The notes beneath the pieces are model-generated. The model worked only from the letters and a program-made list of their open reading frames with translations. It ran no database searches and was not told the DNA's origin. Position numbers and translations under genes: made by a program. A stretch of DNA of 64,000 bases from Ignavibacteriota bacterium. Its GTDB lineage: Bacteria; Bacteroidota; Ignavibacteria; Tepidaquicellales; Tepidaquicellaceae. Positions 22,878-35,984 of this stretch are shown piece after piece (the stretch's first letter is position 1; the number at the start of each line of letters is the position of its first letter). The stretch spans positions 1-64,000 of the forward strand of contig JAPLFJ010000031.1 of NCBI GenBank assembly GCA_026390735.1, in the 5' to 3' direction.

Positions 22878-23285
22878 TTAGTCTTTGTCGATTAGATATT
22901 TAATAAAATATTCTCGGGGGGATATTATATTTGTGCTTTTAAACTTTTTGAGAACCAGAAGATCTTTATCGCCAGATATTATAATATCTGCTTTAATACA
23001 TTCAGCTAACTGTAAAATCTGATTATCGTTCTTATCTCTGCAAATATCCGGTATTAAATTGTCAGGTATGGCTTTTGTTAAATAGGATTCAATAAAATTC
23101 AGAAATTCATTTAACTCAGTTGTTTTAACTTTAAATTTCTTAGTAAGTATCCTTGTAAGCTCATTTACAATATAATCAGATAAATAAATAGAATGATTTA
23201 TCACACAATGGTTAAATATCTTGTGCGCAATACCTTCAGTTAAAAAAGAAGAAAGTATAACATTAGTATCGAATACTATTTTCAC
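22878..23285 (-). CDS. PIN-domain toxin (COG1569 type)
   Basis: A 135-residue PIN-fold ribonuclease. Acidic residues of the active site are visible: Asp6 in FDTNV, Glu in IVNELTR, Asp in CRDKNDNQIL and Asp in SGDKDLL. It overlaps the upstream antitoxin gene by four bases and would be its toxin. The pair sits in a repeat-rich region between metabolic genes, as is common for mobile toxin-antitoxin modules. The target RNA is unknown. Confidence 0.85.
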   Translation of the reverse strand: MKIVFDTNVILSSFLTEGIAHKIFNHCVINHSIYLSDYIVNELTRILTKKFKVKTTELNEFLNFIESYLTKAIPDNLIPDICRDKNDNQILQLAECIKADIIISGDKDLLVLKKFKSTNIISPREYFIKYLIDKD

Positions 23286-23506
23286 TTTATTCCTTTATCG
23301 TCATAAATATCTTCATCTGTAAGGTAACCCTTTTTACGGGCATACGGCATAAGTTTTTCTCGTACTCCTTCGAATTCTATTGAAGCTATATATTTCTCAA
23401 TAGCATTTGTCACAATATCGCTTTTCGTTGTTTTGTATTTCCTGGCAGCAGTGTTTAGCTTCTTTTTCAACTTTGAACCAATACTGACGGTTAGTATTTC
23501 TCTCAT
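23282..23506 (-). CDS. Ribbon-helix-helix antitoxin
   Basis: A 74-residue protein. Residues 1-45 (ILTVSIGSKLKKKLNTAARK then TTKSDIVTNAIEKYI) form a ribbon-helix-helix DNA-binding domain, and the acidic tail ending TDEDIYDDKGIK would cover the toxin. It is the first gene of the pair and would repress its own promoter as a toxin-antitoxin complex. The upstream sequence contains TTGTAATAATTTGTAATAC-like direct repeats (about 23510-23531), a possible operator. Confidence 0.82.
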   Translation of the reverse strand: MREILTVSIGSKLKKKLNTAARKYKTTKSDIVTNAIEKYIASIEFEGVREKLMPYARKKGYLTDEDIYDDKGIK

Positions 23507-23599
23507 ATTATTGTAATAATTTGTAATACAATGTAATACATAATTTAAATATTATCAAGGAAATTGTTTATTGGTGGATGATTGCATTAGTAGAGATGA

Positions 23600-23645
23600 C
23601 CCAGAGGGTACCCCCTGCTAAGAGCACGCAGGAATGACAAGGCAA
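23600..23645. repeat. TARGAGCAY-loop palindromic repeat, intergenic copy
   Basis: Stem CCTGC (23614-23618), 9-base loop TAAGAGCAC and stem GCAGG (23628-23632), followed by AATGACAAGG. Two coding copies in T9SS genes (28040-28071, 29017-29048) have the stem CCCGA / TCGGG, the loop TAGGAGCAT and the same AATGACAAGG flank. Loop and flank are conserved while the stem bases change in pairs. Confidence 0.65.
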
Positions 23646-23647
23646 GG

Positions 23648-24415
23648 TTAGAAGGCTTTTGGGAAGAGGGCGCGAGTGTTGATTTCGAGTTGTGATACGA
23701 GTGATTCGAAGGATGTGTTCTGGAGATGAGCCATCTTTTCGATAGTGTGCTTTACGAATGCGGGTTCGTTCTTCTTTCCGCGGTGTGGAACGGGGGTGAG
23801 GAAAGGGGAGTCGGTTTCTGCGAGGAGTTTGTTTACGGGTGTCTGACGGACGAGGTCGAGTGCATCAAAGTTTTTATACGTAATGTTTCCGCAGTATGAG
23901 ATGCAGTATGTATCAAGAGCGATGGCGTCCTGAAGGTCGGCAGAGTCACCTGAGAAGCAATGGAATTGTCCTTTGACGTTCAGTTTACTTTCCTTTATAA
24001 TTGTGATGGCATCTTTAACGGAATCGCGAGTGTGAATGATTACGGGAAGATTGTATTTTTCCGAAAGTTCAAGATGGCGTTTAAAGAAGTCTTTCTGTTT
24101 GTCTTTGTATGTGATGTCCCAGTAGTAGTCGAGCCCTGTTTCGCCGATTGCCACTACCTTATCTTCTTTTAAGAGAGATTCAAGAGAATCAAAGTCTTTG
24201 TCAGTGAGTTCGGGAATATCGCCCGGATGAAAACCTACTGCAGCATAAATCATCTCGTGTTTTGATGCGAGTTCAAGAATTGCCTCGGAAGTCTTCAGGT
24301 CAATTGCAGGAGCGATGATTTTAGTGATGCCGTTGTTTACTGCGTTTACGAGTATTTCTTCAATCCGGTCTTTTAAATCAGGATAATAGAGATGAGCGTG
24401 AGTATCAATAATCAT
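23648..24415 (-). CDS. tatD: TatD-family metal-dependent DNase
   Basis: A 255-residue TIM-barrel hydrolase with the N-terminal DTHAHLYYP metal motif, GETGLDYYW, PVIIHTRDS, FHCFSG and the C-terminal AETDSPFLTP. The family includes 3'-5' exonucleases for single-stranded DNA and D-aminoacyl-tRNA-type hydrolases. The gene overlaps the purine nucleoside phosphorylase by 11 bases, suggesting a nucleic-acid salvage operon. Confidence 0.93.
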   Translation of the reverse strand: MIIDTHAHLYYPDLKDRIEEILVNAVNNGITKIIAPAIDLKTSEAILELASKHEMIYAAVGFHPGDIPELTDKDFDSLESLLKEDKVVAIGETGLDYYWDITYKDKQKDFFKRHLELSEKYNLPVIIHTRDSVKDAITIIKESKLNVKGQFHCFSGDSADLQDAIALDTYCISYCGNITYKNFDALDLVRQTPVNKLLAETDSPFLTPVPHRGKKNEPAFVKHTIEKMAHLQNTSFESLVSQLEINTRALFPKAF

Positions 24416-25103
24416 TAATCAGTGCGTTTAGATAATTGGAGAAAACCTTATAGGCTTTTGCGCCAGCAGTAACAACTTCGTCGTGAGTGACTTTTGCAGT
24501 CATGCCGTAATGCAGCATATTTGTAATGCAGGAAATACCGAGAGTTTTAATCCCAAGTTCATTTGCTTTCAGTATATCGGGAATGGTTGACATACCAACT
24601 GAGTCGGCACCTGTTTTCTGAATGAAGTTTATTTCTGCCTGCGTTTCATAGACAGGACCTGATGAGGCATAGTAGCATCCTTCAAATACTTTGATTTTGT
24701 TCCGGATGGCACAATCCTTCGCCCACTTTACGATATCGGGGGAGAACTCCACTTTCTGCTTATCAATCAATGGTTTATGAAAAAAGTTAATGTGTGATTT
24801 AATCAGCATCAAATCAGAAATATTAAACTGCGGATTCAGCCCGCCTGCTGCGTTTGTAACTATCAGAAAATCTATGTTTAAGTCTTTTGCGAGAGAAACG
24901 TTGCGGAATACTTTTTCCTTCGAATACGTTTCGTAGAAATGGTTCCTGCCCGTAAAAAGAACTACGGATTTATTGTTAATCTTACCTTCAATGACCTGTT
25001 TTTCGTGAATACCACCGAGTTCGGAATAAATCACGTTTTGATTCGTTAATTCATTCCTGAACTTTGTTAATCCTGACCCTAATATAATCCCTATTTTCGA
25101 CAT
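24405..25103 (-). CDS. Purine nucleoside phosphorylase (trimeric type)
   Basis: A 232-residue class I PNP that splits inosine and guanosine with phosphate. It has GIILGSGL at the phosphate site, GRNHFYE, VTNAAGGLNPQF, SSGPVYETQAEI, the purine-binding VGMSTIPD and ITNMLHYG. It is slightly shorter than the usual 270 residues, mostly at the N-terminus, but the core motifs are all there. It is followed by tatD in the same operon. Confidence 0.92.
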   Translation of the reverse strand: MSKIGIILGSGLTKFRNELTNQNVIYSELGGIHEKQVIEGKINNKSVVLFTGRNHFYETYSKEKVFRNVSLAKDLNIDFLIVTNAAGGLNPQFNISDLMLIKSHINFFHKPLIDKQKVEFSPDIVKWAKDCAIRNKIKVFEGCYYASSGPVYETQAEINFIQKTGADSVGMSTIPDILKANELGIKTLGISCITNMLHYGMTAKVTHDEVVTAGAKAYKVFSNYLNALINDY

Positions 25104-25167
25104 GGAATAATATAAATAATCTGAATCTGAAAGTTAATTCATTTTTTTGTAAAGACCAAGTAAAACG

Positions 25168-25478
25168 CACACTGATAAAAGATGATTAGAGCTGATTACC
25201 ACTGATTAAATAAAAGTGCAAAATGAAACGGGATGGAAAAGCGCACACTGATAAAAGATATTTCAGGGTTAAAGATAAGCCTAAATCCCAATGAATCGGA
25301 ATTAGAAATGTAAGAAACTTTTGAAGAATGGAACGCGGATTTGCACGGATATTTAATTTAGTATAATTATTGGTTTATTTTAAGTTATTTAGAAGATTTA
25401 AAGAAAAGAGTAAACAGAAACCGGATGGAATAACGTACACTTAAAGAAGTGATGATGACTGATTATCACTGATAAAAA
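25168..25478. repeat. Cluster of ACTGATTA-type repeats
   Basis: The gene-free stretch 25104-25507 holds three units: 25168-25210 (GCACACTGATAAAAGATG to CCACTGATTAAAT), 25233-25262 (GCACACTGATAAAAGAT again) and 25434-25478 (ending ATCACTGATAAAAACC). A GGATTTGCACGGAT unit lies at about 25331, related to GGATTTGCACCTACGGA at 3669. Confidence 0.6.
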
Positions 25479-25507
25479 CCAAGAGGACGTCAATCTTTCT
25501 AAATACT

Positions 25508-26299
25508 TTACCGTTTACGGAAAATGTTTACGGGTTTATCAGAAAGGGGAGGTTTCTTCGGTTCAAGGTCTTTCAGAGCCAACGTTTCGGCATCGAAATG
25601 TTCGAAACCTTTGAAGCGGTGACCTTTGCTGTAGGTAAACACAGGAGATTCTGTTTTGTTTTCATAACTGATGATAGTAAAGAAAACGATGGCTTTTCTG
25701 TATTCGTCCAATATTTTGAAAGTACCTTTATCAACCTGCATAGGAAGTTCATTGATATCATCGAGATAGAATTCTCCGTCGCGCAACTCCTGCTGAAAAA
25801 TAAGGTATGCTTCTCTGTTATCGGGAGTTTCCTTTTTAAAAGGCTGGAACATATATATTACTGCTACGGCAACAAAGGGAGGTTCAAAAGTGTCAACAAT
25901 TTCTTTAGTCACATTAAAAGTAAACTCAAGCGAATCGTTATCGATAAATATATCAAGGTTTTTTAAAGGTTTACCACCAGGAACTATTTCTGCTTCGTCG
26001 TGAACAAAATTATCGCGGCACCAGGAATAATTGTACTTTAGTATTCTGGTATAAGAAGATTTACCCGGTAACTTTGAGAGTTTCCAGACTGGGAACAGAT
26101 ATTCAGTTTCGTTTATGACGGAGGCAAATTTAGACATAATCCCAAACCTGTTCCTGTTTTTGATGGAATCCGGGCATTTTGTTTTCTTGTAAGTACGAGG
26201 TTTGGAAGAGACGTAGCTTTTGTTTCTTCTTCTTTTATAAACAAGATCGCCTACTGAACCACGGGCGATGCCGAGTAACTGACGTGAGATTAGTGCCAT
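25508..26299 (-). CDS. Hypothetical protein, possibly DUF6266-like
   Basis: A 263-residue soluble protein without signal peptide. The N-terminus (LLGIARGSVGDLVYKRRR, VSSKPRTYKKTK, then RNRFGIMSKFASVINE) has the pattern Gly-Val-Gly plus a basic SKP segment seen in DUF6266-type proteins of Bacteroidota. The remainder looks beta-rich. I cannot confirm the family. It stands alone, flanked by repeat-rich DNA on one side and a 680-base gap on the other, so horizontal acquisition is possible. Confidence 0.55.
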   Translation of the reverse strand: MALISRQLLGIARGSVGDLVYKRRRNKSYVSSKPRTYKKTKCPDSIKNRNRFGIMSKFASVINETEYLFPVWKLSKLPGKSSYTRILKYNYSWCRDNFVHDEAEIVPGGKPLKNLDIFIDNDSLEFTFNVTKEIVDTFEPPFVAVAVIYMFQPFKKETPDNREAYLIFQQELRDGEFYLDDINELPMQVDKGTFKILDEYRKAIVFFTIISYENKTESPVFTYSKGHRFKGFEHFDAETLALKDLEPKKPPLSDKPVNIFRKR

Positions 26300-26981
26300 G
26301 TATAAGATGATGATTGATTTATGAATAAAAGGTTTCTGTAAGCGGGAACGATATCCGATAGTTCCTTATGGAATATCTTAAGATGAAAATGAGAATATTG
26401 AACCCTTGGCGAATAGACTGTGAATGCCCTTAAAATGCATTTGGAAGGGTGATATAACGCGTTTTTAACGCATTGCATACGGGTTACATACGGGTTAGAC
26501 ACGCGTTGGAGGACTAAAAGTTAAATACAAATGAACGGTACGAGCAAGACGGACGAAGAACTGCAGCAAAAGTATGTTTAAAAGTGATCCCAAAGAATAA
26601 ATTGTTTTAAAGTTGTACAAATATTAAGAGAAAACGTCTGAATTTATTAATACCTTATTTCTAAATTATTTAAATCAGATTTAATAGTCAACATCTAAAT
26701 ATCTATAATATTTTATGTAAATTAGCATACTTGCAATGGAAGGGTCTGTTTTGCAAATTCATAAGACAGAATGGCTAACAAAAAACAAATAAACAATAAA
26801 GAATATTCTAAGGAACAATTAATTTGTATTTTTAAATAAAAATATAATTATTACATTAGAGTAAGCAAATAGATTTCCCAATGGAATACAAAACACAAAT
26901 ATCCGATGTTTGCTATACGGCTCTTCAAACAAGACAGACATACTATATTCAATTTTTAAGAACAATTAATTGCATAACGGT
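26300..26981. other. Gene-poor gap with possible gene remnants
   Basis: No convincing gene. A short direct repeat CATACGGGTTA occurs twice at about 26476-26500. Two short ATG frames, 26531-26581 (16 residues) and 26771-26839 (22 residues, starting MANKKQINNKEYS), look like truncated N-termini. The rest is very AT-rich and could hold the promoter of the T9SS gene at 26982. Confidence 0.4.
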
Positions 26982-28250
26982 ATGAGAAAAATATTTATCA
27001 TCTTAGCGATGCTCGTGGCAGTGAATTCAAGTGCACAGTGGGTGCAGATGTCAAATGGACCAACAGAAGTAGTAAATAGTATAATTGTTTCTGGAACAAA
27101 CCTTTATGCAGGAACATTAGCCGGTGTATTCCTGTCGACAAATAATGGAACAAACTGGACTGCAGTCAATAATGGATTAACAAATCTCTACATTAATACA
27201 CTTGTAGTTTCTGGTACAACAATCTTTGCAGGATCTATTAACGGCATTATATTCAGGACAAATGATAATGGAATGACCTGGACTTCACGAACTCTTGGGT
27301 CTTCAATTAATGATGTTTATGCGCTTGCAGTATCTGGCACAAATATTCTTGCGGGAACACAAGGAAATGGGATTTTTATCTCAACAAACAACGGTAATAC
27401 CTGGACTGTGGTAAATAACGGATTAACAGGATTTGGTTTATTTGTTAATTCCTTTGCAGTTTTGGGCTCAAATATTTTTGCTGGAACATCAGAGGGTATA
27501 TTTTTAACAACAAATAACGGCACATATTGGAATAAGTTATATACTGGACTTCCAACTAATGGTAGGGTTCACGCACTTATTGTTTCTGGAACAAAAATAT
27601 TTGCAGGAATTTACGGTTATCCTACTCCAGCAGGAGTATATTTATCCACGAACAACGGAACAACATGGATGGCAGTCAATAATGACTTAAATGATAGAGA
27701 TATATTTTCATTTGCAGTTTCTGACACAAACCTTTTTGTCGGTACTCATTATGGTGTATATTTATCTACAAATGATGGAGCAAATTGGATTCCAAAAAGT
27801 CAGGGGTTCTCTGTTTGGATGTATATTCGTTCTTTAATTATTTCAAATAATTATATTTTTGCCGGAGTTAGTCCTTCAGTTCCTCCTTACCCGGTGTATA
27901 AAGTGTTTCGGCGCTCACTATCTGAAATCATCTGCATCCAAAACATCAGCACAGAAGCACCATCAAAGTATTCACTATCGCAAAACTATCCGAACCCGTT
28001 CAACCCAACGACGAAGATAAGATTTAGTGTTGTGAATGGATTCCCGATAGGAGCATTCGGGAATGACAAGGTTGTGTTGAAAGTTTACGATGTAATGGGG
28101 CGGGAAGTACAGACACTGGTGAATGAGAGATTACAGCCCGGCACGTATGAAGCCGCGTTTGACGGCTCGGCACTAAACAGCGGAGTGTATTTCTATAAAC
28201 TGGTGACGGGCAATTTTACTGAGACAAAGAAGATGATACTTATTAAATAA
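26982..28250 (+). CDS. T9SS-exported beta-propeller repeat protein
   Basis: A 422-residue protein: signal peptide (MRKIFIILAMLVAVNSSAQ), then about seven repeats of the form SGTNLYAGT...GVFLSTNNGTNW, typical of BNR/YCF48-like propellers, then a T9SS type A sorting domain with SLSQNYPNPFNPTTKIRF and a terminal MILIK. The ATG at 26982 is preferred over a TTG at 26970. The cargo would be cleaved and anchored at, or released from, the cell surface. A palindromic repeat is inserted in frame in the sorting domain (28040-28071), adding NGFPIGAFGNDK. Confidence 0.85.
   Translation: MRKIFIILAMLVAVNSSAQWVQMSNGPTEVVNSIIVSGTNLYAGTLAGVFLSTNNGTNWTAVNNGLTNLYINTLVVSGTTIFAGSINGIIFRTNDNGMTWTSRTLGSSINDVYALAVSGTNILAGTQGNGIFISTNNGNTWTVVNNGLTGFGLFVNSFAVLGSNIFAGTSEGIFLTTNNGTYWNKLYTGLPTNGRVHALIVSGTKIFAGIYGYPTPAGVYLSTNNGTTWMAVNNDLNDRDIFSFAVSDTNLFVGTHYGVYLSTNDGANWIPKSQGFSVWMYIRSLIISNNYIFAGVSPSVPPYPVYKVFRRSLSEIICIQNISTEAPSKYSLSQNYPNPFNPTTKIRFSVVNGFPIGAFGNDKVVLKVYDVMGREVQTLVNERLQPGTYEAAFDGSALNSGVYFYKLVTGNFTETKKMILIK
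28040..28071. repeat. TARGAGCAY-loop palindrome inserted in a T9SS sorting domain, copy 1
   Basis: ATTCCCGA, 9-base loop TAGGAGCAT, TCGGGAAT, then GACAAGG. It is in frame and encodes FPIGAFGNDK between the first and second strands of the sorting domain. Sorting domains without it (for example at 29240-30181) read IRFQLSVAGDVSLRV here. Confidence 0.7.
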
Positions 28251-28264
28251 TTTTATCGTCAGAG

Positions 28265-29227
28265 ATGAAAAAGCTAATAGTTATTTTAGTAATGTTCTTA
28301 CTCTCTTTAATTTCAGGAGCAGAGGCACTTGATACACTTTCAACTGAATATATGCCAATGCACGTAGGAGATTTTTGGGTATATGATGTTGCACAACATC
28401 AGGTCCCAGGTGGTACTTTTCGTTGGAATGAAAAACTATCCGTTGTCTGCTTAAGAACAGTAAATAATCATGTTTATTATTATCTGAAGACAATTGCTCA
28501 AAACCATTCACCAACTGTGTATTTTAATGGTTACTATAGGGTTGACAGTTTGACAGGAAGCTTAATGAAATATGATTCAATTGGATGGTGTTCAAATTAT
28601 CATTTTGAAAGTTTAAGCGACAGTCTCGCAGCAGTAATTGGTGATTCAGTAATGAATTGTAATTCTGGAGGGTATAAATGTAATGGAATAAATAGATATT
28701 TTATCTTTGGTGATTCAACTACTGGAAAACTATTTAAAAATACTATTACAATTGGTTCATTTAGTACAGTCTATAATAAATCTTTCTACTTTAATTGTGG
28801 TTTATATAGTTACTCTGGCGAAGCCGGTGGTTATGGAAATTCTGGGATAGTATCTGTCCTTAAAGGGTGCAGAATAAATGGAATTGTTTACGGAGATACA
28901 ATTCAAACAGGAATATTCCAAATCAACACCGAAATACCAGCAAAGTATTCGCTGGGGCAGAACTATCCGAATCCGTTTAATCCGACGACGAAGATAAGAT
29001 TCAGTATTGTAAATGGATTCCCGATAGGAGCATTCGGGAATGACAAGGTTGTGTTGAAAGTTTACGATGTAATGGGGCGGGAAGTACAAACGCTGGTGAA
29101 CGAAAGATTACAGCCCGGCACGTACGAAGCCGCGTTCGACGGTTCTTCTTTAAATAGTGGAGTGTATTTTTACAAGATTTCTGCGGGAGATTATTCGGAG
29201 ACGAAGAAGATGTTATTAATAAAATAA
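28265..29227 (+). CDS. T9SS-exported protein, tandem paralogue 1
   Basis: A 320-residue protein with a signal peptide, a conserved N-terminal domain (YMPMHVGDFWVYD, VDSLTGSLMKYDSIGWCSNY, then SLAAVIGDSVMNC) and a T9SS sorting domain (SLGQNYPNPFNPTTKIRF). It is about half identical to the next gene, so the two arose by tandem duplication. The sorting domain is nearly identical at the base level to that of the preceding gene over about 130 bases and shares its palindromic insertion, although the cargo domains are unrelated. Function unknown. Confidence 0.82.
   Translation: MKKLIVILVMFLLSLISGAEALDTLSTEYMPMHVGDFWVYDVAQHQVPGGTFRWNEKLSVVCLRTVNNHVYYYLKTIAQNHSPTVYFNGYYRVDSLTGSLMKYDSIGWCSNYHFESLSDSLAAVIGDSVMNCNSGGYKCNGINRYFIFGDSTTGKLFKNTITIGSFSTVYNKSFYFNCGLYSYSGEAGGYGNSGIVSVLKGCRINGIVYGDTIQTGIFQINTEIPAKYSLGQNYPNPFNPTTKIRFSIVNGFPIGAFGNDKVVLKVYDVMGREVQTLVNERLQPGTYEAAFDGSSLNSGVYFYKISAGDYSETKKMLLIK
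29017..29048. repeat. TARGAGCAY-loop palindrome inserted in a T9SS sorting domain, copy 2
   Basis: The same palindrome, loop and GACAAGG border as at 28040, in the same codon phase and at the same place of the sorting domain. Confidence 0.7.
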
Positions 29228-29239
29228 TTTTTATAGATT

Positions 29240-30181
29240 ATGAAAAAACTTAAATCATTAATTATTCTGTTACTGCTCTTTATAGCGTCCACTTCTTTTG
29301 GCTTAGATACAAATTCTATAAAGTATATGCCTTTACATGTTGGGGATTTTTGGGTGTATAATGGTTACACTTATCAGGTACCTGGGGGTCCTACATACTG
29401 GATAGAAAAACTCTCTGTTATCAGTTCAAGGGCAATAAATAACCATATTTATTGTTATTTAGTTTCAAATAGAACACCTTCATATCTTCCTTTTAAAAAA
29501 GAGTACTTAAGAGTTGATAGCATTACGGGAAGTTCATATAAATATGATTCCACAGGATGGTGCTCTAATTATTATTTTGAAATGTTATCTGACAGTCTTG
29601 CGGCTGTTTATGGTGATTCAATTAAGAATTGTGGTATCGGTTATTACAAATGCATCGGCAACTCAAAATACTTTTTATTCGGTGATTCGATAACGACAAT
29701 AAATTATTATTCTCATATCGGGTGGGGTGGTGGAAGTTATTCAATTTATCAAATAAGTTTCTCTCAAAATTATGGATTATCTAAATACTCTAATAATTCA
29801 TCAGGTGGTGGAACATTTGGCAGTTTATCTTATACTCTTAAAGGTTGTAAAATTAATGGTATTCTATATGGTGACACATCAACCGTTTCTATTTTAAACA
29901 TCAGCACAGAAACACCATCAAAATATTCACTATCGCAAAACTATCCGAACCCATTTAATCCGAGTACAGTTATACGTTTTCAGTTGTCGGTTGCAGGTGA
30001 TGTATCATTGAGGGTGTATGATGTGATGGGGAGGGAAGTACAGACGCTGGTGATTGAGAGATTGCAGGCGGGGACTTATGAAGTGAAGTTTGACGGCTCG
30101 ATGCTGATGAGCGGGGTTTATTTTTATAAGATGGTGACGGAAGGGTTTACAGATACGAAAAGAATGTTATTGATAAAGTAG
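29240..30181 (+). CDS. T9SS-exported protein, tandem paralogue 2
   Basis: A 313-residue protein similar to its upstream neighbour throughout the cargo domain (YMPLHVGDFWVYN, VDSITGSSYKYDSTGWCSNY, SLAAVYGDSI), with the four conserved Cys of that domain retained. It also has a signal peptide and a T9SS sorting domain (SLSQNYPNPFNPSTVIRF to MLLIK). The sorting domain lacks the palindromic insertion present in the two upstream genes. It lies 12 bases after the neighbour, probably in one transcript. Confidence 0.82.
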   Translation: MKKLKSLIILLLLFIASTSFGLDTNSIKYMPLHVGDFWVYNGYTYQVPGGPTYWIEKLSVISSRAINNHIYCYLVSNRTPSYLPFKKEYLRVDSITGSSYKYDSTGWCSNYYFEMLSDSLAAVYGDSIKNCGIGYYKCIGNSKYFLFGDSITTINYYSHIGWGGGSYSIYQISFSQNYGLSKYSNNSSGGGTFGSLSYTLKGCKINGILYGDTSTVSILNISTETPSKYSLSQNYPNPFNPSTVIRFQLSVAGDVSLRVYDVMGREVQTLVIERLQAGTYEVKFDGSMLMSGVYFYKMVTEGFTDTKRMLLIK

Positions 30182-30306
30182 TTGAGCGTTGATAGTTGTC
30201 AGTTGATAGATAAAAAATTAAAGATTTTAACACTAAGTCACGAAGAACAAAAGATTAATTTAGAATGCAAAGTTCAGAATTAAGTGATGCGATAGAGATT
30301 TAAGTA

Positions 30307-30458
30307 AATCCCGTAGGGATTGAATATCAGTAGTCAGGAATATGCCCCTATTGTCTTATCCCGTAGGGATTACATATTGGTTTGTGATGAAGTGCAATAC
30401 CTATGGCATTGGATCTGTGTAATAATTAGTACTACTGATATTTAATGCCTACGGCATT
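30307..30458. repeat. Four-hairpin inverted element B (REPIN-like)
   Basis: Same plan as element A: hairpins at 30307-30321 (AATCCCGTAGGGATT), 30358-30371 (ATCCCGTAGGGATT), 30396-30410 (AATACCTATGGCATT) and 30444-30458 (AATGCCTACGGCATT). Two point right, two left. The outer units share an AATATCAGTAG tail pointing inward. Compared with element A the stem changes CTC/GAG to CCC/GGG and GCC/GGC, and one unit has a G-T wobble, so base pairing is kept. It lies in a 350-base gene-free gap before the next T9SS gene. Confidence 0.75.
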
Positions 30459-30475
30459 GAAAGATTAAATATTGT

Positions 30476-30495
30476 TTCCGGCAAGAATGCCGGAA
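30476..30495. repeat. Short perfect hairpin after element B
   Basis: TTCCGGCA, loop AGAA, TGCCGGAA. It forms an 8-base perfect stem 38 bases before the T9SS gene start and could be part of the same repeat array or an mRNA leader structure. Confidence 0.55.
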
Positions 30496-30532
30496 CTACG
30501 AAAAGAAGAACAAAGAATTTAATTATAAGATT

Positions 30533-31777
30533 ATGAAAAGGGGAATTTTCACAGTGTTGGTTTTAATGATGAGTGCACTGTGTTTTTCACAGACGTACTT
30601 TACGAGGGTTACGGATTCAATACCGAATCTTGTGATTATGTCTATGCAGTTTACTTCTGCTAATAGGGGATATGCGTGCGGAAGTTATCAAACAAATTTT
30701 CCGGGTGCTTTCCTAAGAACAACGAATGGAGGTGTGAACTGGCAGGTCACACAGTTTACGAATGTATCTGTTGATGATCTTACATTTGTTAACGAGAATA
30801 CGGGTTACCTTTCCTGCTGGAGGGACTGGAGCTATGTTTACAAGACAACGAATGGTGGCTCAAACTGGTTTTGTGCAGATAGTATACACACAAGCTTCTT
30901 CAGGATAAAGTTCTTTGATGCTAATACAGGTTGCGTAGTTGCAAAATATAATACTAATCATTTTACAACTGATGGCGGGTATACCTGGACCTCGCAGTAC
31001 AATGGTTTTTGGCATGAGCCATCTTCTCTGAATTGTCTGAATGCTGATACATGGCTTGTTGCAGATGGTGGAAGCCAGATTATGAAAACAACTAACAGAG
31101 GAATAAACTGGAATGCAGTACTTTTTGATACAATCGGTATTTCGTCATTACACTTTATTAATGATACTACAGGTTTTGCTGTATCGTATTATGGTGTTGT
31201 GTGCAAGACGAATAATGCCGGTAACAACTGGACACGAATTGCTAAACTTGCTGGCGGAATCTATAGTACGTTCTACGATGCAAGAATTGTGTTTCCGAAT
31301 CCGAATACAGGTTATATAACCTCCGGGAGTGGTATGTTCAAAACAACAAACGGAGGGTTCAACTGGAGCAGACTTTCATTCAACACAATGGCAGGGCTGA
31401 GTTCTTTGTACTTTTTAAATCCTGATACAGGTTTTGCGGGAGGTTACAGCGGTTTTATTTACAGGACGACAACAGGAGGCGTAGCGTATGTACCTCCACC
31501 GAAAGAGATTCCGACTGATTACAAGTTATTCCAGAACTATCCGAATCCTTTTAATCCGAGAACTGTAATAAGGTTTCAGATTCCGAAGGCAGGTCAGGTT
31601 TCTTTAAAAGTTTATGATGCTTCAGGAAAGTTTATGACGACACTCGTAAACGAATACATTCAGGCAGACTTTTACGATGTAAGTTTTGATGGAACAGGAT
31701 TGAGCAGCGGAGTGTATTTTTATAAACTTGCTACTGAGGGCTTTACTGAGACGAAGAGGATGGTGCTTTTGAAATAA
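30533..31777 (+). CDS. T9SS-exported YCF48-like beta-propeller protein
   Basis: A 414-residue protein with a signal peptide (VLVLMMSALCFSQ), about six YCF48/BNR-like repeats (FVNENTGYLSCW...YKTTNGGSNW type) and a T9SS sorting domain (KLFQNYPNPFNPRTVIRF to MVLLK). Such proteins are presumed to be surface-bound or released; the ligand is unknown. The sorting domain diverges from those of the upstream genes, so it was not recently exchanged with them. Confidence 0.85.
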   Translation: MKRGIFTVLVLMMSALCFSQTYFTRVTDSIPNLVIMSMQFTSANRGYACGSYQTNFPGAFLRTTNGGVNWQVTQFTNVSVDDLTFVNENTGYLSCWRDWSYVYKTTNGGSNWFCADSIHTSFFRIKFFDANTGCVVAKYNTNHFTTDGGYTWTSQYNGFWHEPSSLNCLNADTWLVADGGSQIMKTTNRGINWNAVLFDTIGISSLHFINDTTGFAVSYYGVVCKTNNAGNNWTRIAKLAGGIYSTFYDARIVFPNPNTGYITSGSGMFKTTNGGFNWSRLSFNTMAGLSSLYFLNPDTGFAGGYSGFIYRTTTGGVAYVPPPKEIPTDYKLFQNYPNPFNPRTVIRFQIPKAGQVSLKVYDASGKFMTTLVNEYIQADFYDVSFDGTGLSSGVYFYKLATEGFTETKRMVLLK

Positions 31778-31789
31778 GAGATACCCACC

Positions 31790-31833
31790 CCGTCTGTCTG
31801 CTTGCGCAGACATCCACCCCTCCAAGGAGGGGA
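31790..31833. repeat. Double-hairpin palindromic repeat after a T9SS gene
   Basis: Two adjacent stems: TGTCTG / CAGACA (31795-31812, loop CTTGCG) and CCCCTCC / GGAGGGG (31817-31832, loop AA), followed by AATC. It lies in the 100 bases between two T9SS genes. It lacks a T run, so a classical terminator is unlikely. Confidence 0.6.
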
Positions 31834-31879
31834 ATCTTTAAAGATGTGGTAGTGTACAAATAATTTTAAATAAGTATAA

Positions 31880-33322
31880 ATGAAAAGATTAATAGTTGTA
31901 GTTATAATGCTTGTATCACTGAGTGCAAATGCTCAGTGGATTCAGTATCCGCTGTCATATACCGGGTTTGCGTATACATTGGGTTTTTATGATGTGAACA
32001 GGGGATTGTCATTCGGACATACAATGTTTCCGTTTAATCAGAATTTATATTACACTACTAATTCGGGTAGTAACTGGGTGATGGCAAATTATCCAATGCA
32101 GTTAAGGGCTTTTGCAGATGTACAATATATCAATGCCAACATTGTTTATGCGGGTGGTTCGGAGAATGTTGTGTTGAAGAGCAGTAATAGTTCTCGGAAT
32201 GATTTTAGAAATTTTCCGAAGTTCTTAAGAGAGCGATTACTGCGTGAAGGTAAGAGGGAATATTCTGTTGAGTATAAGAGTGCATTTATTAAATCGAGTG
32301 ACGGAGGTGTAAACTGGCAGAGGGGTTCGGAGTTTGATACGCTAACGGGATTTATTACAGACATACATTTTCTGGATATTAATACGGGGTATGCTTTAAT
32401 TGATTCTACAATGTACGGCAGGACAAGGTTTTACAAAACGACAAATGCAGGTACAAACTGGAATATGGTTTGCAGGATAGACACTGCAGAAGTTGATAAG
32501 ATGGTATTCCTTGATGCGAATACAGGAATTGCTAAGGGGTACAGTTGGGGCGGAAGAATTTACAGGACTACGAATGCAGGTGTGAACTGGGCTATAAAAG
32601 AAATGCCAACTCAGATAGACGGTCTGACATTTTTCAATCAGAGCACTGGTATAGCAATAGGCATTCAAGAGGCCGGAGCAACAACAAAAGTTTACAGAAC
32701 AACGGATGCGGGAATAAACTGGAATGTAGTGTATACAAATCCCGGGAGACAATACCAGAACATAAAAGCCATTCCGAATACCGGTACGGCATTTGCGGTA
32801 GGAAATCTGATTGATACTGTGCAGTCTATGTACGGAAAGATAACAACGTTAAAGACTACGAACTATGGATTTAGCTGGGTAGTTAAAGAATTTAATCCGC
32901 CTTCTCTGATGTTTGGAGTTGGGATTGCAGATGCGAACAACTTCTTTATAGGCGGCGGTGATGTTTACGGACAGGCAATAATAATGAAGTCAACAAACGG
33001 CGGTAATGTGTTTGTTAATAATTCCGGGAGTGAAATACCTTCGGCATATTCACTGGAACAGAATTATCCTAATCCGTTTAATCCTTCGACAGTTATTCGT
33101 TTCGAGTTGTCAGTTGTCAGTGATGTATCGTTAAAAGTCTATGATGTGCAGGGCAGGGAAGTGGCGACTCTGGTGAATGAGAAGATGAATGCAGGAAAAT
33201 ATGAAGTGTGGTTTGACGCTCTCCTCGGCGGGTCTTCGAGGGAGCTGGCGAGCGGGATTTATTTTTACAGGATGGTAACGGATGGATACAGTGAGACGAG
33301 GAAGATGTTTTTATTGAAATAG
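31880..33322 (+). CDS. T9SS-exported YCF48-like protein with inserted segments
   Basis: A 480-residue protein: signal peptide (VVVIMLVSLSANAQ), YCF48-like repeats (KTTNAGTNWNMV, RTTNAGVNWAIK and others) and a T9SS sorting domain (SLEQNYPNPFNPSTVIRF to MFLLK). Two segments do not fit. Residues about 107-135 are Arg/Lys/Glu/Phe-rich (NDFRNFPKFLRERLLREGKR) and split one propeller repeat, with LKSS before and IKSS after it. In the sorting domain ALLGGSSRELASG replaces the usual GSxLSSG. Both inserts contain inverted repeats (32194-32219 and about 33222-33242). Confidence 0.82.
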   Translation: MKRLIVVVIMLVSLSANAQWIQYPLSYTGFAYTLGFYDVNRGLSFGHTMFPFNQNLYYTTNSGSNWVMANYPMQLRAFADVQYINANIVYAGGSENVVLKSSNSSRNDFRNFPKFLRERLLREGKREYSVEYKSAFIKSSDGGVNWQRGSEFDTLTGFITDIHFLDINTGYALIDSTMYGRTRFYKTTNAGTNWNMVCRIDTAEVDKMVFLDANTGIAKGYSWGGRIYRTTNAGVNWAIKEMPTQIDGLTFFNQSTGIAIGIQEAGATTKVYRTTDAGINWNVVYTNPGRQYQNIKAIPNTGTAFAVGNLIDTVQSMYGKITTLKTTNYGFSWVVKEFNPPSLMFGVGIADANNFFIGGGDVYGQAIIMKSTNGGNVFVNNSGSEIPSAYSLEQNYPNPFNPSTVIRFELSVVSDVSLKVYDVQGREVATLVNEKMNAGKYEVWFDALLGGSSRELASGIYFYRMVTDGYSETRKMFLLK

Positions 33323-33510
33323 TTGATCCTCCCAACAAGACGGCGGACGCAAAGAATGCGTAGTTTTTTGTTATCAATTGTTCGTTGTCAGTTGTTTGTT
33401 TTCAGGGATGACGGAACCGTAATTGGGATTAAAAAATAAATATGGAATCAACTTGCTATTGATGTTTATTAATAGCATATTGTTTACTAAGATATAAATA
33501 AAGATATATG

Positions 33511-33682
33511 TTTCAGATTTGATTTGCCACTTTGAATTTATTCTAAGTACTGCAGTTCACACCTCCAAAAATATGTTATCGGATTTATAGAAAAACATAA
33601 ATTTACATTTAGCGTATTTATATCAAACAGAAGTCCGATATAAATCGGAGTAAATTAAAAAATTTCTTTGAAAGGAAACAAA
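33511..33682 (+). promoter_or_regulatory. Long structured leader of cold-shock gene 1
   Basis: The leader shares ordered blocks with that of the second csp gene: AGATTTG near the presumed -7 region, TGCAGTT, GATTTATAG, AAATTTACATTTAGC, TATATCAAA, and the hairpin TCCGAT-ATAA-ATCGGA (33634-33649), then the ribosome site AAAGGAAA. The other copy has TCCGGT and ATCGGA, which keeps pairing by a G-T wobble. Long leaders of this kind control csp mRNA stability and translation by temperature. The gap from 33323 to 33510 shows no gene. Confidence 0.6.
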
Positions 33683-33883
33683 ATGGAAAAAGGAATCGTA
33701 AAATGGTTCAACTCGTCAAAAGGCTTCGGATTTATCACAGTAGCCGGTAAACCAGATGTATTCGTACATTTTAATGCCATCTTAGGTGATGGATACAAAG
33801 CATTAGACGAAGGTGATTCAGTAGAATTCGAAATTGAAGACGGACCAAAAGGTCTTCAGGCAGCAAATGTTACAAAACTTTAA
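33683..33883 (+). CDS. Cold-shock protein 1
   Basis: A 66-residue single-domain nucleic-acid chaperone with RNP1 GFGFITV and RNP2 DVFVHF. ATG at 33683 follows GAAAGGAAA and is preferred over the TTG at 33668. It differs from the second csp at only a handful of residues, so the pair is a recent duplication including the leader. It is monocistronic, with its own terminator. Confidence 0.95.
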
Positions 33884-33922
33884 GTCTAAATTAATTAGCT
33901 GAAAATAGTAATAGCTGTATAG

Positions 33923-33955
33923 AAGGGTTGTCAGTAATGACAACCCTTTTTTTAT
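33923..33955 (+). terminator. Terminator of cold-shock gene 1
   Basis: AAGGGTTGTCA / TGACAACCCTT with loop GTAA, then seven T. Confidence 0.92.
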
Positions 33956-34172
33956 ATCCTGCCAGATTATTTTCCCAAAAATACATTCATAATAACCACC
34001 TCTAAGCACTGATTTATCATGCATAAGCGTTACTAATGTATAGATTATTAAGAACCTCCCAGAAAAATATATCTGTAATAACATACAAAAAATATTTCAT
34101 AAATGCGTTTTTTTATCTTGCATTTTCAGAAAATTAGTCCGATATTGTAAACGGTTATTAAGTTATTTGTTA

Positions 34173-34349
34173 TAGATTTGTTTTGCCGCTTGGAAGGAAA
34201 ACTTCACGAGTTCTGCAGTTTACACTTTTCTAAAGTATGAATCCAGATTTATAGGAAAAATCAAATTTACATTTAGCTTTTTATATCAAATATTTATCCG
34301 GTATAAAATCGGAAGTAAATTATTAAAAAATTTCTTGAAAGGAAATGCA
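34173..34349 (+). promoter_or_regulatory. Promoter and structured leader of cold-shock gene 2
   Basis: A -7-like TAGATTTG (34173-34180) is followed by a leader of about 160 bases that carries the same blocks as the first csp leader, with the hairpin TCCGGT-ATAAA-ATCGGA at 34297-34313. Length and position recall the long leader of E. coli cspA. Confidence 0.6.
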
Positions 34350-34550
34350 ATGGAAAAAGGTACTGTAAAATGGTTCAACTCTTCAAAGGGTTTTGGATTC
34401 ATTACCGTAGCAGGTAAAAAAGATGTATTCGTACATTTTAACGCAATTTTAGGCGATGGTTACAAAACATTAAACGAAGGCGATACAGTCGAATTCGAAA
34501 TCGAAGACGGACCAAAGGGACCGCAGGCAACAAATGTTACAAAACTCTAA
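34350..34550 (+). CDS. Cold-shock protein 2
   Basis: A 66-residue cold-shock domain protein with [18 protein letters not shown] (RNP1 and RNP2). ATG at 34350 follows GAAAGGAAA and is preferred over TTG at 34335. It is a close paralogue of the gene 670 bases upstream. Two copies in tandem suggest dosage or differential control at low temperature. Confidence 0.95.
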
Positions 34551-34597
34551 AACTAAAATGTAATTAGCTAATTATAAAAAGTGTTACAGTTTGTACG

Positions 34598-34631
34598 AAA
34601 AGGGCTGTCAGAAATGGCAGCCCTTTTTTTA
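34598..34631 (+). terminator. Terminator of cold-shock gene 2
   Basis: AAAAGGGCTGTCA / TGGCAGCCCTTTT with a GAAA tetraloop and a T run. Confidence 0.92.
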
Positions 34632-34742
34632 TTACAGGAAATCAGTGTTTTAATGCTAATGAGACGTGTTTTTGAATATTATCTGAGTGAAACTTTTGGT
34701 ATATTTACGTAGTTAGATATTTATATAATTTAATTTAAAAGC

Positions 34743-35228
34743 ATGGATGCAAAATATCTAATAGAGTTGTCAAAAGAGTTTTTTGAGAAGGCATACAGGC
34801 TGCAAATGGACGGTAAATATGAGAATGCGATTGAGTTGTACAAGAAATCGCTTGAATATTATCCGACAGCAGAAGGTTATACTTTTATGGGCTGGGCTCT
34901 TAGTGCACTGGGAAATTATGAAGGTGCGATAGAAGAGTGCAAGAATGCCATAGAAATAGATGCAGATTACGGCAACCCATACAATGATATAGGAGCATAT
35001 TTAATAAGTCTTGGCAGGTATGAAGAAGCGCTTGCGTGGCTTGAACTTGCGCTTAAGGCCCCGAAGTATGCGAACAGGGAATTTGCACATTATAATCTGG
35101 GAGTTGTTTATGAGAAGCTCGGTTTATGGTTTGAAGCACTTGCGGAATACAAAAAAGCGTTCAAGGTGTCACCGAGGTATGGTAATGCCAGAAAGAATTA
35201 TTTCAGATTACAATCTCAATTAAATTAA
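34743..35228 (+). CDS. Cytoplasmic TPR protein
   Basis: A 161-residue protein of about four TPR units (for example YENAIELYKKSLEYYPTAEG, YEGAIEECKNAIEIDADYG and WFEALAEYKKAFKVSPRYG) without a signal peptide. It probably mediates protein contacts. The T9SS gene starts 12 bases later, so the two may share an mRNA. Confidence 0.8.
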   Translation: MDAKYLIELSKEFFEKAYRLQMDGKYENAIELYKKSLEYYPTAEGYTFMGWALSALGNYEGAIEECKNAIEIDADYGNPYNDIGAYLISLGRYEEALAWLELALKAPKYANREFAHYNLGVVYEKLGLWFEALAEYKKAFKVSPRYGNARKNYFRLQSQLN

Positions 35229-35240
35229 ATATTTACAAGA

Positions 35241-35984
35241 ATGAAAAAAGTTATTCTATTAATCTTAGTTATGGTATCATTATCAGGGACTTTATTCTCC
35301 CAGACATTCAGTTTTTACAGAACTTCACCATTGCTGATAAACGGCGATACTTCATATTCTAATGCTACAATTTCCAAGGCAGTTTACAAGAATACAGGTT
35401 CAACAAGTTTGAATTTTACATTTGCAAGGATATTAAATAACTTACCCGGTCCAGACTGGTCGTGTAGTATGTGTGCGGGTACAAATTGTTTTTCACCGAC
35501 ACAGGATACCATACCTCCAAGAGGAGCATCGAATATAACATTAGGAGCAGGAGTTGCAGATACATTATCGATTGATTTTTACGGGATTTCTATCGGTACA
35601 GCAACAGTTATTATTAAAGTATGGGTTAATTCAAACCCAGCGGTGTATGCGATAGATACTTTCAAAGTACATTTAGGTCCTGTAGGTATCAGACAAATAT
35701 CAAGCATAGTTGAAGGATACAAACTTGAACAGAATTACCCAAATCCTTTTAACCCTTCAACAAGGATAAATTTTTCAGTACCGAAGAGAGAAAGTGTAAG
35801 CCTGAAGGTTTATGACATACTAGGCAATGAAAAAGCAACTTTACTGAACAGTGAGAATTTATCGCAGGGTACATATTCATACGATTTTAATTCATCTGAA
35901 TTTAATATGTCATCGGGAGTATATTATTACATATTAAAGACAGAGAGTTTTACATCTGCAAAGAAAATGATGTTAATCAAATAG
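35241..35984 (+). CDS. T9SS-exported protein with a short cargo domain
   Basis: A 247-residue protein: signal peptide (VILLILVMVSLSGTLFSQ), a domain of about 130 residues with CSMCAGTNC and a beta-rich pattern (possibly Ig-like, since GAGVADTLSIDFYG resembles a DUF1573-type strand pattern), then a divergent T9SS sorting domain (KLEQNYPNPFNPSTRINF to MMLIK). The cargo function is unknown. Confidence 0.78.
   Translation: MKKVILLILVMVSLSGTLFSQTFSFYRTSPLLINGDTSYSNATISKAVYKNTGSTSLNFTFARILNNLPGPDWSCSMCAGTNCFSPTQDTIPPRGASNITLGAGVADTLSIDFYGISIGTATVIIKVWVNSNPAVYAIDTFKVHLGPVGIRQISSIVEGYKLEQNYPNPFNPSTRINFSVPKRESVSLKVYDILGNEKATLLNSENLSQGTYSYDFNSSEFNMSSGVYYYILKTESFTSAKKMMLIK

Follow-up and report, generated by a model that had tools for sequence, protein, structure and literature searches.

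A short exchanged tract built round an in-frame palindrome as the probable source of near-identical DNA in the T9SS sorting domains of adjacent genes

Results

Two adjacent genes, A and B, share a stretch of nearly identical DNA in their T9SS type A sorting domains that is probably a short gene-conversion-like tract, built round an in-frame copy of the repeat P1 in the β1-β2 loop. The P1 palindromes form a dispersed family with a covarying stem and occur both between genes and in the sorting-domain loop, in both orientations and in several genomes.

Genes A, B and C

The window is the whole 64,000-nucleotide stretch that was analysed (C9:1-64000; positions elsewhere are given as contig:position), and the genome it comes from has 4.02 Mb in 69 contigs. 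Three adjacent genes in the window each end in a T9SS type A sorting domain. Gene A (26982..28250, + strand), assigned from Pfam and TIGR04183 profile matches, joins a Sortilin/BNR-repeat cargo (PF15902, 48.9 bits against a cut-off of 33) to its sorting domain. Gene B (28265..29227, + strand) was assigned by profile search, and no Pfam match was found for its cargo. Gene C (29240..30181, + strand) is a cargo paralogue of B, and the two sister cargoes share 54% identity over 214 aa. The cargoes of A and B gave no match at E 1e-3, in agreement with the initial annotation, which had called them unrelated. By profile score the C-termini of A, B and C are T9SS type A sorting domains with a predicted role in secretion: TIGR04183 scores of 38.7, 39.7 and 40.4 bits and PF18962 scores of 38.1, 39.2 and 35.9 bits all exceed the curated cut-offs of 23 and 27, respectively.

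The sorting domain of A (27984..28250, + strand) has 88 aa counted from NYPNPF, and that of B (28961..29227, + strand) also has 88 aa; both were delimited in a domain survey with loop measurement. They differ from the usual type A domain in a β1-β2 loop that carries a repeat-derived insert and has 15 residues instead of 7. A pattern search places the P1 palindrome of A at 28038..28068 (+ strand), where it is read in frame as GFPIGAFGND, and that of B, also in frame, at 29015..29045 (+ strand). Gene C has a 7-residue loop (QLSVAGD) without P1, and the earlier observation that the paralogue at 29240 has a different sorting domain lacking the palindrome therefore holds. A structure model of the B domain, computed from an 85-row alignment, has six strands and a pLDDT of 78.4. 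Most of the P1-coded residues (31-41) belong to the coil that links the first two predicted strands (residues 21-28 and 41-47), and the pLDDT is 60 for residues 31-40 compared to 83 and 94 in the neighbouring blocks. A fold search with this model was weak; human CD47 came first (E 3.0e-3) and the mirolase CTD 8qb1 second (E 5.7e-3), with none under 1e-3. The B domain has a profile match to 8glj_D (E 7.7e-4).

A difference-free tract with abrupt ends

The initial annotation described about 130 nearly identical bases in A and B. The alignment of 28016-28150 with the copy 977 bp downstream (28993-29127) gives 127 of 135 identical bases, and the eight differences are at 28025, 28029, 28034, 28112, 28115, 28124, 28127 and 28148. 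Between them runs a 77-nt tract without any difference (28035..28111 in A and 29012..29088 in B, both + strand), which alignment and the codon test point to as the minimal exchange tract. The palindrome lies inside this tract in both genes, and the left border of the tract is 3 nt before it. None of the 25 core codons differ, compared to 6 synonymous and 1 non-synonymous changes in 17 codons of the left flank and 8 synonymous changes in 20 codons of the right flank (Fisher p = 0.0003; without the palindrome in the core, p = 0.0098). The frequency of synonymous differences thus rises abruptly on either side of the core, and the 13 codons past the palindrome have no synonymous change while codons further out do change. 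In a run test with 246 polymorphic sites, the palindrome excluded and 100,000 shuffles, the longest identical run was equalled in 335 shuffles; the best-segment score was equalled in 4 shuffles with a penalty of 4 and in 2,584 with a penalty of 2, which is marginal only. A sharp identity border had been expected at the QNYPNPFNP codons and is absent there. The sharp border is at the palindrome, and a likeness of 15-16 of 20 bases starts near 27950, in the linker.

The sorting domain of A is a mosaic

Ungapped segment comparison of A against the other sorting domains assigns its parts to different relatives. The linker is nearest to C55:43884 (62/75, with only 37/75 for B), the middle part containing strand 2 is nearest to B (71/75), and the tail is nearest to C55:41254 (74/84, with 59/84 for B). 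Judged by these segments, the sorting domain of A is a mosaic with a middle like that of B. At A/B the unit that moves is not the entire sorting domain, because the tail of A is nearest to another gene and the sharp border lies at the palindrome. Of the earlier proposal that sorting domains move as modules by recombination, exchange between copies is upheld and the whole domain as the moving unit is not.

Separate phylogenies of cargo and sorting domain had been suggested as a check. B and C are sisters by their cargoes, yet the test on the sorting domains rejects a B+C grouping (36-row tree, p-AU 0.0024). A and B are not strict sisters in the 36-row tree, where an A+B clade is not rejected (p 0.43), and they are sisters in an 89-row tree with support of 100/95. 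The 89-row tree contains 13 changes of presence and 27 of type, numbers that are not usable as a count of independent insertions because recombination confounds the tree. A weak inference is that the exchange ran from A to B, because C, the cargo sister of B, has another loop and middle type and because SIVN and GTYEAAFDGS of B resemble the contig-55 genes, which the linker and tail of A also resemble. Close orthologues of A or B without the insert were looked for and none was found (best 48% and 44%), so there is no before-and-after site.

Neighbouring T9SS genes have more similar sorting domains

Pairs of T9SS genes up to 5 kb apart whose cargo similarity is undetected (E over 0.01; n = 71) have a mean sorting-domain DNA identity of 0.655, compared to 0.610 for pairs 5-10 kb apart and 0.606 for pairs on different contigs. 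An effect of this size was reached in 0/5,000 permutations. Even cargo homologues on different contigs have a mean sorting-domain identity of only 0.626. The effect persisted with a stricter cargo filter (E over 1; 55 pairs, 0/3,000) and without the enlarged-loop domains (44 pairs, 0/3,000). It weakened when contigs 28, 55 and 59 were removed along with the enlarged loops (39 pairs, 49/3,000), and it was not significant after removal of single-linkage cargo families (33 pairs, 321/3,000). The single-linkage filter is severe because it lumps 119 of 173 genes, including A, B and C, into one family, and it still limits the claim. The neighbour effect rests largely on few clusters, and some cargo homology may be missed because 70 of 174 cargoes are only partly covered by the DNA examined. 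Local exchange between the A and B sorting domains is supported by the mosaic structure of A, the rejection of the B+C sorting clade despite sister cargoes and the greater likeness of T9SS neighbours.

P1 is a dispersed palindrome

P1 consists of GGATTCCC, 13 spacer bases and GGGAATGACA, about 31 nt together. Fifty-two exact copies were found in 12 of 21 genomes of the genus and family, and the reversed-pattern control gave 0 in all 21. Ten of the exact copies are in the window's own genome, a count that leaves degenerate copies outside. The inner stem is left free by the pattern, and its pair 1:13 is Watson-Crick in 51/52 copies (shuffle maximum 47) and its pair 2:12 in 48/52 with four pair types (shuffle maximum 36). 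The initial annotation had not recognised the palindrome as a member of a dispersed repeat family that has entered the loop in a history of its own. Among the 40 distinct exact copies with DNA examined, 7 are in sorting-domain loops and 33 are elsewhere. An ATG-started ORF of at least 100 codons crosses three of these 33 (L115, L135 and L140), so P1 may also occupy other coding positions; the L115 ORF seems to extend a secreted protein at its upstream end. The same 31-nt sequence as in A and B is present at C56:229095, and the ORF list and repeat search place a P1-like palindrome (CCTGCTAAGAGCACGCAGGAATGACAAGG) between listed ORFs of the window at 23614..23642 (+ strand). No Rfam match to P1 was found in 23000-35500 at E 1.

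A RAYT (Y1 transposase) was rejected as the mover of P1 for lack of adjacency in 30 examined loci. These are 30 of the 62 with Y1_Tnp matches, including 2 of the 5 in the window's own genome, and no P1 was present in flanks of up to 1.5 kb on each side. A lone 3-mismatch match near one Y1_Tnp locus (L189) is not a palindrome.

An IS110-type 23-nt end lies directly after GGGRATG in 6/6 places with that end. In five places this GGGRATG forms the right arm of a complete P1, and on contig 42 it belongs to a decayed unit downstream of a full P1. The contig 42 copy matches PF01548 (DEDD_Tnp_IS110, 41.1 bits, cut-off 29) and PF02371 (Transposase_20, 56.1 bits, cut-off 21.3), and for the other five the sequence covers only some 130 nt of this end before the contig stops. 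Two of the six places are inside sorting-domain loops near contig ends (L364, C5:46528; L369, C65:74152). The IS110-type element appears to split these two further P1 loops, and the T9SS genes there are probably interrupted.

The β1-β2 loop holds more than one repeat family

Loop size was measured from strand 1 to strand 2 in 173 of 174 sorting domains from about 0.51 Mb of the window's own genome, chosen around sorting-domain matches. The loop has 7 residues in 154 domains and 15 in 12, and seven other sizes between 9 and 23 occur once each. By our reading of the sequences, 15 of the 19 enlarged loops are repeat-derived. Forward P1 is assigned to four (A, B, C56:227584 and C56:228913), a short-spacer P1 to C58:14711, inverted P1 to C32:76874 (decayed) and C68:11919, and the repeat P2 to eight, of which seven are on contig 59, including one compound loop, and C40:33736 is a variant. 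The remaining four (C37, C40:25735, C50:128866 and C53) match no repeat family. P2 is a second repeat family of the same loop that is also intergenic, and the repeat search places such an intergenic copy (CCCCTCCTTGGAGGGG...GGGGTGGGTAT) in the window at 31781..31832 (- strand).

The four forward P1 loops and those of C58 and C68 passed a stem-length test (P 0.002-0.042). The P2 loops (P 0.13-0.32), C32 (P 0.99), C37, C50:128866, C53 and C40:25735 failed it, and the test was rejected as proof that every enlarged loop is a palindrome. In the pattern-free loop set the 3' frame is constant, with GND before strand 2 in 5/5 forward loops and GNP or GDL in 2/2 inverted loops. The sequence of forward P1, with its TAA or TAG spacer, shows stop codons in two of the three frames. 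The constant frame would fit selection for the turn beside strand 2 without proving it.

Several other sequence features were observed, in these loops and elsewhere. AGD/SGD loops are rich in GGG, which raised the idea of P1 relics; GGG encodes 19 of the 79 glycines in 7-residue loops, compared to 81 of 693 outside. A GTTGTCAGTTGTCAGT-like sequence at 29968-29998, 30180-30210, 33091-33121 and 33362-33392 lies between genes and inside QLSVVSN-type loops, where the loop length is unchanged, and is perhaps a third repeat family of the same loop. Copies of P2 are located at the 3' end of two T9SS genes (L081, C28:55267-55318; L240, C52:6114-6152) with sorting-tail-like sequence beyond, as if these tails had been split or exchanged. 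An insert near the C-terminus (VVRH.GSSTG) is common to the sorting domains at L081 (C28:48801-49064) and L077 (C55:42558-42821). Another repeat-like element of the window is an inverted repeat between genes at 30307-30334 and 30431-30458 (AATCCCGTAGGGATTGAATATCAGTAGT, 89% complementary). Matches to the cspA thermoregulator family at 33622-33953 and 34294-34629 of the window (E 1.1e-8 and 9.7e-9, both short of the gathering score) overlap a 233-nt direct repeat of 84% identity.

An order-wide search of 44 genomes looked for the right arm of P1 beside strand 2, with the constant 3' frame built into the patterns. Forward P1 loops were found at 20 places in 5/44 genomes and inverted ones at 16 places in 5/44, jointly in 8 genomes, and the reversed controls gave 0. 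NYPNPF precedes 32 of the 36 places in frame; the others are one place at L296, L307 (where the sequence has an N), L308, which the element interrupts, and L316. In 26/36 places a perfect stem of 7 bp or longer is present, and in two of them, L303 and L314, this longest stem is not P1's own. The loop region of L296 (G008:C84:1052) contains successive GND units (RIRGNDNGGLVGNDKGGFVGNDR), as if P1-derived codons formed a tandem repeat. A stricter pattern applied to one genome per species (84,980 species, a set that may omit the window's own genome) found 10 loci, which belong to 3 metagenome bins, each of them labelled Ignavibacteriae.

Discussion

The favoured history of A and B starts from the β1-β2 loop as a flexible turn that would tolerate in-frame palindromes, which would make it one of the few coding places where P1 in a compatible frame survives. 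A REP-like P1 would have been captured in frame in this loop, and P1 with its flanks would then have spread by homologous exchange among many paralogous sorting domains, mostly neighbours, whatever their cargo.

Duplication of a whole P1-bearing sorting domain and its fusion to a second cargo, without gene conversion, would account for the adjacency of A and B on the contig and for their sister position in the 89-row tree (100/95). We consider this improbable because A and B agree at 71/75 positions of the middle but at 37/75 of the linker and 59/84 of the tail, the tail and linker of A are nearest to contig-55 genes and synonymous differences step up at both ends of the core; the segment identities contradict whole-domain duplication. 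A history in which A and B each gained P1 of one subtype separately, with the rest of the identity due to protein constraint, would agree with the repeated entry of P1 into the loop in two orientations and several subtypes, and with the identical 31-nt sequence at C56:229095. The 13 codons after the palindrome without synonymous change, next to changed outer codons (Fisher 0.0098), make such a history without exchange quite unlikely.

A third possibility accepts exchange and makes the loop its active site, with an IS110-type recombinase that is guided to P1, breaks the DNA there and drives tag exchange. The IS110-type end after the GGGRATG arm in 6/6 places, two of them in sorting-domain loops, and the exchange-tract border 3 nt from P1 point in this direction. 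The neighbour effect stays without the enlarged-loop domains (44 pairs, 0/3,000), which argues that exchange does not need P1, and we give this mechanism little chance. The broader idea of the loop as a standing landing and exchange site, where REP-like palindromes enter, a P1-guided IS110-type recombinase provokes recombination and secretion tags reassort among cargo genes, is similarly a long shot; if true, a mobile-element target would have been turned into a diversification hotspot of a secretion system. The short gene-conversion-like tract round P1 stays our preferred explanation of the A/B identity.

Comparison of P1 with the known repeats begins with its REP-like features. P1 is a short imperfect palindrome with a conserved stem (covariation, 52 copies) that is mostly extragenic (33/40 outside the loops). 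REPs are specific IS targets according to the available part of PMC1525189, and P1 is like REPs and the IS that target them in that an IS110-type end adjoins it at a constant position; P1 would offer an IS110-type element a palindromic target in bacteria not named in that part of the source. REP copy number is usually over 100 per genome in the part of PMC2817692 that is available, and P1 is below this with 10 exact copies in the window's own genome. P1 differs from RAYT-type REPs in that no RAYT gene stands beside it in the 30 loci examined, and from REPs in general in that it is also translated inside genes. Domain recombination among T9SS-secreted surface proteins, mainly of adhesin and catalytic domains, is described for Porphyromonas gingivalis (PMC5266723, available part). 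The likeness is in the domain exchange among T9SS-secreted proteins, and the difference is that the available part of PMC5266723 makes no mention of sorting-domain palindromes. A search of the openly accessible literature found no report of palindromes in the sorting-domain loop.

Coding palindromes are best known from Rickettsia. The Rickettsia palindromic elements (RPEs) are dispersed palindromic repeats of about 150 bp that are in frame inside protein-coding genes, namely unrelated metabolic genes, as presented in the available part of PMC10969869. Compared by its features, P1 too is a dispersed palindrome in frame inside protein genes, and by this analogy with the RPEs of that partial source they are the nearest known case to P1. 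P1 differs from RPEs in its length of about 31 nt and its use of both orientations, and in that every one of the 7 exact copies clearly inside genes lies in the same loop of a single domain attached to unrelated cargoes, with 3 further copies uncertain. P1 loops let one ask whether an insertion survives by tolerance or by targeting, how a new peptide is domesticated and how one genome circulates more than 170 sorting domains over unrelated cargoes. In several species and in either orientation, a repeat shorter than the RPEs has repeatedly come to encode protein at a single defined site within a widely used secretion tag.
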